From contig JAITSF010000023.1 in NCBI GenBank assembly GCA_031287975.1, positions 1 to 10,295 on the forward strand: 10,295 bases of DNA. The letters run 5' to 3'. How positions within the stretch are numbered: position 1 is the stretch's first letter; each line of letters opens with the position of its first letter. A program made the translations under genes and the position numbers. Source of the stretch: Candidatus Nomurabacteria bacterium (GTDB lineage Bacteria; Patescibacteriota; Saccharimonadia; Saccharimonadales; Saccharimonadaceae). Shown here one piece after another: positions 327 through 530 of the stretch. Under the pieces are notes generated by a model. The model did not search any database, had not been told where the DNA came from, and saw only the letters and a list, made by a program, of their open reading frames with translations.

Positions 327-349
327 TTTATCCCCCTTATTATTTACTT

Positions 350-367
350 GAAACTTGTATAAGTTTC
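350..367 (-). repeat. Perfect 7-bp hairpin next to the ribosome binding site
   Basis: GAAACTT (350-356) and AAGTTTC (361-367) are complementary around a 4-base loop. In the mRNA of the secreted protein the hairpin ends about 12 nt before the AAGGGGG ribosome binding site. It could affect translation initiation or mRNA stability. No T-tract follows in the mRNA direction, so it is not a terminator of that message. Confidence 0.55.
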
Positions 368-385
368 TTTTGCTTGGCGGCTATC

Positions 386-497
386 AAAAAGCGACCATAT
401 CTGTCGCTAAACGTTTCAACCAGTGGTTTCCCAGAGAGTTGCGATATGGTCGCAGGGTTCTCTAGGAATACTCAAAAATCCACTAGCAACGTTTAGC
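386..497 (-). promoter_or_regulatory. Structured leader RNA with candidate attenuator (riboswitch-like)
   Basis: Read on the minus strand from the predicted +1 at 497, this leader shows nested helices. P1 pairs 488-497 with 406-415 (10 bp) and continues 480-486 with 420-426 (7 bp, one G-U). P2 pairs 459-466 with 430-437 (8 bp, one G-U). P3 pairs 450-454 with 440-444 (5 bp). Directly after P1, GCGAC (407-403) and GTCGC (395-391) form a hairpin followed by five T (390-386), an intrinsic-terminator shape. The segment 453-443 is also perfectly complementary over 11 bp to 401-391. That pairing would open both P3 and the terminator stem, acting as an anti-terminator. These complementarities are read directly. 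The switching role and any ligand are inference, and I do not recognise a known riboswitch class. The terminator stem is short (5 bp), which is the weakest point. Confidence 0.5.
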
Positions 498-503
498 ATT
501 ATC

Positions 504-530
504 AGTATAACACAAAAATTGAAAGAGCAA
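504..530 (-). promoter_or_regulatory. Extended -10 promoter of the secreted-protein gene
   Basis: On the minus strand an extended -10, TGTTATACT, occupies 512-504, with a weak -35-like TTGCTC at 530-525 (15-bp spacer). The predicted +1 is the G at 497, which is the first base of leader helix P1, so promoter and RNA structure support each other. The leader to the ATG at 326 is about 171 nt. Confidence 0.6.

Follow-up and report, generated by a model that had tools for sequence, protein, structure and literature searches.

A putative attenuating leader RNA family in Patescibacteria in which two strands may compete for the 3′ arm of a terminator hairpin

In the fluoride riboswitch, a pseudoknot fold and a terminator are mutually exclusive, and riboswitch aptamers keep the letters that contact the ligand. 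The antiterminator of T-box leaders takes the 5′ arm of the terminator. According to the portions available of PMC7337938 and PMC11625349, a pseudoknotted leader fold and a terminator also exclude each other in the ZTP/pfl and preQ1 riboswitches. T-box leaders carry a mutually exclusive terminator and antiterminator in the 5′ leader (PMC4695836, in part), and the HMP-PP (thiS) riboswitch is a terminator-embedded aptamer in which sensor and terminator share sequence (PMC6478431, in part). In the accessible parts of open-licence papers, little was found on RNA-level gene control in Patescibacteria.

The stretch of DNA analyzed here (the window, 10,295 nt) makes up all of contig C68; the genome has 506 kb in 78 contigs and an estimated completeness of 70%. 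The initial annotation read minus-strand positions 497–386 as an attenuating leader with mutually exclusive helices. Its observation is confirmed and its reading is supported. The features are listed in Table 1. The closing helix of 10 + 7 bp (P1) was present on the minus strand as described, pairing 497–488 with 415–406 (10 bp) and 487–480 with 426–419 (7 bp, or 8 including one G-U). Both inner helices, 468–459 with 437–428 (P2) and 454–450 with 444–440 (P3), were found in the window copy. Relatives gave the 5-bp P3 too little support for a separate conserved helix: its score averaged 9.03, compared with 8.46 when halves were swapped and 6.72 in shuffled sequences. RNA folding, which the annotation had suggested as a check, gave −43.0 kcal/mol for 386–497 compared with −23.4 (sd 3.25) in 200 dinucleotide shuffles (z = −6.02), none of which was as good.

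The hairpin GCGAC (407–403)/GTCGC (395–391), followed by TTTTT (390–386), was also found as annotated. We refer to this pairing of strands B and C as T1. It has 5 contiguous pairs by direct count and 6 in the terminator scan, and overlaps P1 by 2 nt. The scan of 280–620 returned two sites, 583–547 and 408–390, compared with a shuffle mean of 0.2. The perfect alternative pairing (A:C) joins 453–443 to 401–391 over 11 bp with 0 mismatches. When the central 64 nt were shuffled and C was held fixed, the score of this flush 11-bp helix was reached by 1 of 20,000 dinucleotide shuffles. The two folds are mutually exclusive, as had been claimed, since A:C and B:C share strand C, and both pairings are kept in relatives. 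Two points go beyond the annotation: it is the 3′ arm of T1, not the 5′ arm, that the alternative helix takes up, and the same design is found again across the order and also outside it.

A consensus promoter scan found no promoter of the −35/−10 type in 280–620. The sole ATG in 497–386 (by eye, ATG frames only) opens a 4-codon frame inside the terminator. The preceding gene on the same strand (1602–598) encodes a major intrinsic protein, and the terminator-like hairpin at 583–547 lies between it and the leader, which therefore probably starts its own transcript. The downstream minus-strand gene (326–3) runs to the contig edge. Its product, annotated as a secreted surface-type protein, begins with a hydrophobic signal-like segment. 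This protein had no Pfam match up to E = 1, and the homologues found were itself and one fragment only.

Table 1. Features of the putative leader and its surroundings in the window
Feature	Position	Strand	Basis or remark
Extended −10 element TGTTATACT	504..512	(-)	at −15 to −7 of inferred +1 (497); one mismatch from extended −10
P1, 5′ strand	480..497	(-)	first base = inferred +1; MFE fold and P1 covariation in relatives
U-rich 11-nt bulge, 5′ side between P1 and P2, possible hinge	469..479	(-)	MFE fold
P2, 5′ strand	459..468	(-)	partner 428–437; MFE fold
Strand A GCGACCATATC	443..453	(-)	partner is strand C, 11 bp; also within inner hairpin P3
P3, small inner hairpin	454–450 with 444–440	(-)	overlaps strand A
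P2, 3′ strand	428..437	(-)	MFE fold
P1, 3′ strand	406..426 (426–419 and 415–406)	(-)	MFE fold
Strand B GCGAC	403..407	(-)	5′ arm of putative local terminator hairpin T1; shares 2 nt with P1 3′ strand
Strand C GATATGGTCGC	391..401	(-)	full-length partner of A; 395–391 is 3′ arm of T1
U-tract TTTTT	386..390	(-)	in the window copy flush with A:C and also with T1
Shine-Dalgarno-like AAGGGGG for downstream gene	332..338	(-)	read from letters
Downstream gene start, signal-like N-terminus, 108 aa, cut by contig end	3..326	(-)	ORF list; no Pfam match to E = 1

A DNA search of the genome located the same 5′ UTR at two more places, on contigs C16 and C57. The window and its C16 paralogue are 97% identical over ~73 nt of 5′ UTR and gene start. 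The C16 leader differs in sequence and follows the same plan: a long stem closes the fold, the strand ahead of the U-tract has its pairing partner in the centre, and there is a local hairpin. The terminator letters of C16 recur unchanged in the copies on C24 and C1. A further match, on C13, is without a recognisable −10 box, and no ORF was chosen within 100 nt of it. The C57 copy is a truncated remnant (L003 908–1007) in which the terminator half, the 5′ UTR and the opening codons of a gene are left; it precedes a complete 338-aa ORF that by eye resembles tryptophanyl-tRNA synthetase.

The window contig (at 1–326) and the C16 contig (L002) both end inside homologous surface-protein genes, and more paralogous starts lie on other contigs. 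They point to a repeated gene family, possibly a variable one, at which the assembly breaks. The ORF after the C24 leader (L046/L012), a paralogous surface protein, weakly matched the Pam pilus pilin model NF058581 (E 5.7e-5, 23.2 bits, under the model cut-off of 55). The genome has 7 copies of an 18-bp palindrome, GAAACTT-N4-AAGTTTC (window 350–367 and contigs C16, C22, C41, C57, C60 and C64), and 0 of the same pattern read backwards. One copy sits between the window leader and its gene, and C64 holds a near copy 191 nt from its exact one. The palindrome may be a site to which a protein binds, or may belong to a repeat.

An exact pattern taken from the same-genome leaders was run on genome contigs and matched 14 stretches. 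The element is present in 11 of them, three of which coincide with loci already found by DNA search. The other three (L036, L040 and L043) are without the architecture and were taken for chance matches; in their genomes the second-round model R2 gave 1, 1 and 0 matches at E ≤ 1, the best at E 0.04. These three are the genomes outside the phylum on which R2 was run, and the distribution figures cover Patescibacteria. Three pattern scans of viral contigs gave no match, and neither did a DNA search of the one other genome in the genus.

In alignment A1, 14 elements were aligned without structure. RNAalifold took the long-range A:C helix as its consensus, with both-sided changes at three pairs. 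Model R1 matched 89/392 genomes of the order at E ≤ 0.01. R2, built from 99 aligned matches, at E ≤ 0.001 matched 114/392 genomes of the order, 105/315 good-quality genomes and 66/157 genera. In a sample of the phylum it matched 40/379 genomes at E ≤ 0.01. Of the genomes outside the order, 10 had matches at E < 1e-6; one of these belongs to the same class and the remaining nine to the rest of the phylum. The 12 matches in the phylum sample at E 0.001–0.01, several of them short, are probably due to chance.

The annotation had recognised no known riboswitch class, and Rfam agreed. Rfam 15 had no match over the element in the window at gathering scores, and none on an element in 30 further loci at E thresholds of 1, 0.5 and 0.1; elsewhere in those loci it matched tRNAs, one L10 leader and, weakly and by chance, one microRNA. 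No such element was described in the available parts of open-licence papers on RNAs of candidate phyla and Patescibacteria, on pseudoknot antiterminators and on pili; an unnamed earlier listing in the supplementary tables of large RNA screens is possible. The portions available of PMC11665869 and PMC8040213 likewise contain no description of one. Sequence comparison points to a real RNA family, absent from Rfam, in many Saccharibacteria and some other Patescibacteria. One copy (L039) is in a single-cell genome of oral taxon 352, a lineage that has cultured members.

Three loci deserve separate mention. The same leader and protein start occur in two different taxonomic families (L071 1501–1629 and L072 1501–1629; G234 f6 and G025 f1), which suggests either a recent transfer or a mis-binned contig. 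L032, labelled as a Chloroflexi bacterium, carries an element identical to that of G040, a genome of the window's own family, and its label is probably wrong. In L026 (G040:C15), a second hairpin, GACAGCC/GGCTGTC, lies 3′ of the element beside the Shine-Dalgarno sequence and could add translational control in that copy.

Anatomy was counted in 128 distinct elements, window included. Left out were L153 and L179 (model matches without a real A:C), L177 (which has a 12-bp A:C and is cut by the contig end), L180 and two exact duplicates. In the common plan P1 begins at the inferred +1, strand A lies centrally, strand B overlaps P1, and strand C comes directly before the U-tract; A and B both pair with C. 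A:C has at least 10 contiguous pairs in 116/128 elements and is flush with the U-tract in 128/128, in a search that penalised other offsets. T1 has at least 6 contiguous pairs in 112/128; the window (5) is among the other 16. The gap between T1 and the U-tract is 1 nt in 100/128 and 2 nt in 23/128. The 5′ arm of T1 overlaps the 3′ strand of P1 by exactly 3 nt in 109/128, which puts P1 and T1 in competition. Elements open with GTC in 115/128, which is what one would expect if P1 and T1 both needed GAC. Of the 83 representatives, 60 have the larger bulge of the stem from P1 to the loop on the 5′ side and 21 on the 3′ side, and in 2 the sides are equal.

The annotation had placed the transcription start at 497. 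Relative to the first P1 base, a TATAAT-like box (at most 1 mismatch) begins between −16 and −9 in 72/83 representatives, and at exactly −12 in 57, a register that matches the window copy and supports this start.

The annotation had also asked whether homologous leaders covary, and they do so in the same A:C pairing. The test set was 83 representatives below 75% identity, a cut which is the permutation null's sole correction for relatedness. Scored with its own partners, A:C averaged 26.9, compared with 13.7 (sd 0.53) for permuted partners over 5,000 permutations (z = 24.8). The helix search fixes the first eight paired positions, and weight is therefore placed only on the pair types and the permutation control. 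At least 10 pairs between the central region and C were found in 90% of real and 0.9% of shuffled regions. On A1, which was not fitted to structure, 93.1% of the cells of P1 and A:C were paired, compared with 84.1% when shuffled and at most 44% when slid. On A3 (98 distinct rows; the structures fitted were P1, part of T1 and a small apical hairpin, not A:C), the corresponding values were 95.4% and 74.3%. T1 itself reached 98.5% on A3 compared with 90.4% shuffled, A3 being partly fitted to it. The A:C pair adjoining the U-tract, which T1 leaves unused in most members, is GC in 63, CG in 10 and UA in 8 of 81 representatives. A:C and B:C both look selected in these comparisons.

An ORF lies 3′ of the element in 83/83 representatives, at a median distance of 40 nt. 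A Shine-Dalgarno-like sequence precedes 77/83 of the chosen ORFs, the choice itself having favoured such a sequence. A membrane- or signal-like N-terminus was found in 52/81 downstream proteins compared with 26/140 neighbouring ORFs (Fisher p ~1e-11), and in 46/69 of those with at least 80 aa, as in the background (again p ~1e-11). Protein families for the 83 are reported from the first 25 of 35 and the first 25 of 33. The former include DUF4352 (6), serine recombinases (4), bacterial PH domain (2), DUF4190 (2) and DNA methylases of the C5 (2), N4/N6 (2) and EcoRI-like (1) types; the latter include GspG-like pseudopilins (2). Among the families so reported (25 of 35; 25 of 33) there are no thiamin, aminoacylation or ribosomal-protein genes. 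The downstream genes point to no single pathway, and a global signal therefore seems more likely than a pathway metabolite. Before serine recombinases, L108, L139 and L176 have a weak or almost absent B:C and keep an A:C of 11–12 bp. These leaders are perhaps a subtype belonging to mobile elements.

The reading that we prefer, and consider somewhat probable, is that the leader is a cis-acting transcription attenuator in which B:C is the terminator and P1 with the A:C pseudoknot is the read-through fold. Comparison supports P1, A:C and B:C, the way these exclude one another, the promoter register and the position before genes; termination, the direction of the switch and the signal are what we infer. 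Both marks of a transcription attenuator, a terminator hairpin and an alternative that excludes it, are conserved in the leaders compared. Transcription would start at 497, and P1 and P2 would fold first and present strand A. Strand C would then emerge beside the U-tract, and A and B would compete for it. B:C would give the local hairpin T1, whose full form must reclaim 2–3 nt from the foot of P1. We read it as the terminator from its usual terminator shape and from the 5′ arm that it has in common with P1. A:C would make a pseudoknot with P1, and P1 and A:C together would exclude T1. If T1 formed, a short transcript would end near 386 and the gene would be off; if P1 and A:C formed, polymerase would read through into the surface-protein gene and the gene would be on. 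The balance would be set by some signal: a metabolite, a protein, or the kinetics of folding or elongation. A strand A lying free in the loop was considered and rejected, as MFE folds of the upstream domain leave it on average 33% unpaired, and at least half unpaired in only 20/83. A must thus open before it pairs.

Several results tell against this attenuator, among them the pairing of A in the upstream folds and the failure of R1 and R2 to find the window copy significantly. A:C is by computation the stronger helix (mean −18.9 compared with −9.0 kcal/mol for T1) and, flush with the U-tract as it is, would also suit a terminator. In addition, 16/128 members have fewer than 6 T1 pairs, and L176 has almost none. 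The wiring may then be the reverse, with the A:C pseudoknot helix itself as the terminator and B:C as a competing hairpin that spoils or delays it. This would account for A:C being flush throughout (offset 0, again, was favoured by the penalty) while T1 usually stops 1–2 nt short, for a GC-rich helix at the U-tract with an A-rich stretch just 5′ of A (the two columns there are A in 92/96 and 89/94 letters), and for L058, L146 and L176, which are poor in T1 and still have A:C. We nevertheless find reverse wiring unlikely. T1 is terminator-shaped and has its 6 or more pairs in most members, the GAC common to P1 and T1 is most easily explained if T1 formation matters, and A:C would have to recruit its partner from a distant loop. 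There may also be no switch at all, the leader being constitutive or the source of a stable small RNA, with helices that tune a fixed read-through or RNA stability. The heterogeneous downstream genes would fit this, and the RNA end could be shielded by the long stem at the 5′ side. Such a fixed leader would hardly keep three strands complementary in two exclusive ways across strongly diverged sequences, or have an ORF close downstream in every representative, and we regard it as improbable.

The attenuator reading may be right for the family and fail for the window copy, whose pairings would then be due to chance or be those of a decayed remnant. Its letters in A, B and C differ from those of other members. 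R1 had no match at 386–497, and R2 without filters gave 9.3 bits (E 0.4), which is not significant and is exceeded at two other places in the window. The B:C hairpin overlaps P1 as it should, and is weaker than most (5–6 pairs, 2-nt overlap). With neither model significant, the grounds for membership are the architecture, the register of the promoter and a gene context in common with a canonical member. Here the window copy has P1 at the inferred +1, a −10 box in the main register of its relatives, and an 11-bp A:C directly before the U-tract of a quality that shuffles almost never reach, in a region whose fold is itself far below its shuffles (z = −6.0). Its gene context is shared with the C16 paralogue, which carries a canonical leader before a gene start that is nearly the same, and C also ends in GTCGC in L148, L169 and L174. 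We consider a chance or decayed origin very improbable and place the window copy in the family as a diverged member, a judgement made from architecture and context and not from its score. If this is correct, A, B and C have changed together with their pairing kept, so pairing rather than sequence would matter.

Leaders of this family precede surface-protein and pilin-like genes, of a kind possibly employed by these epibionts on their hosts. Should the switch work as proposed, it would be a widespread class of regulatory RNA in Patescibacteria, it would give a list of genes possibly controlled together, and its strand-exchange logic would be the capture of a terminator 3′ arm by a pseudoknot. 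A bolder conjecture, which we hold to be doubtful, is that one design serves scattered Patescibacteria genes: similar strands A (in a distant loop) and B (beside P1) would exchange on C beside the U-tract, A:C would be an intrinsic terminator made through a tertiary fold, and surface, recombinase and DNA-methylase genes would answer one common signal.

Compared with ribosomal protein leaders, the family is likewise a structured cis leader, with no ribosomal protein among the families reported downstream; the one L10 leader matched (RF00557, L035 2860–3001) is on the opposite strand and apart from the element at L035 3329–3452. As in the HMP-PP (thiS) riboswitch, sequence is common to the putative sensor part and the terminator. 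Unlike that riboswitch, the family has no Rfam match, a long P1/P2 domain stands before the terminator, and no thiamin gene is among the families reported. Unlike the ligand-contact letters of aptamers, its paired strands change freely. With T-box leaders it shares an exclusive terminator and alternative structure in the 5′ leader; it differs from them in the lack of an Rfam match and of aminoacylation genes among the families reported, and in that strand A takes the 3′ arm. As in the ZTP/pfl, preQ1 and fluoride riboswitches, pseudoknot and terminator exclude each other. Unlike in these, no Rfam model matches the element, and the strand that the pseudoknot uses is the 3′ arm of the terminator itself.
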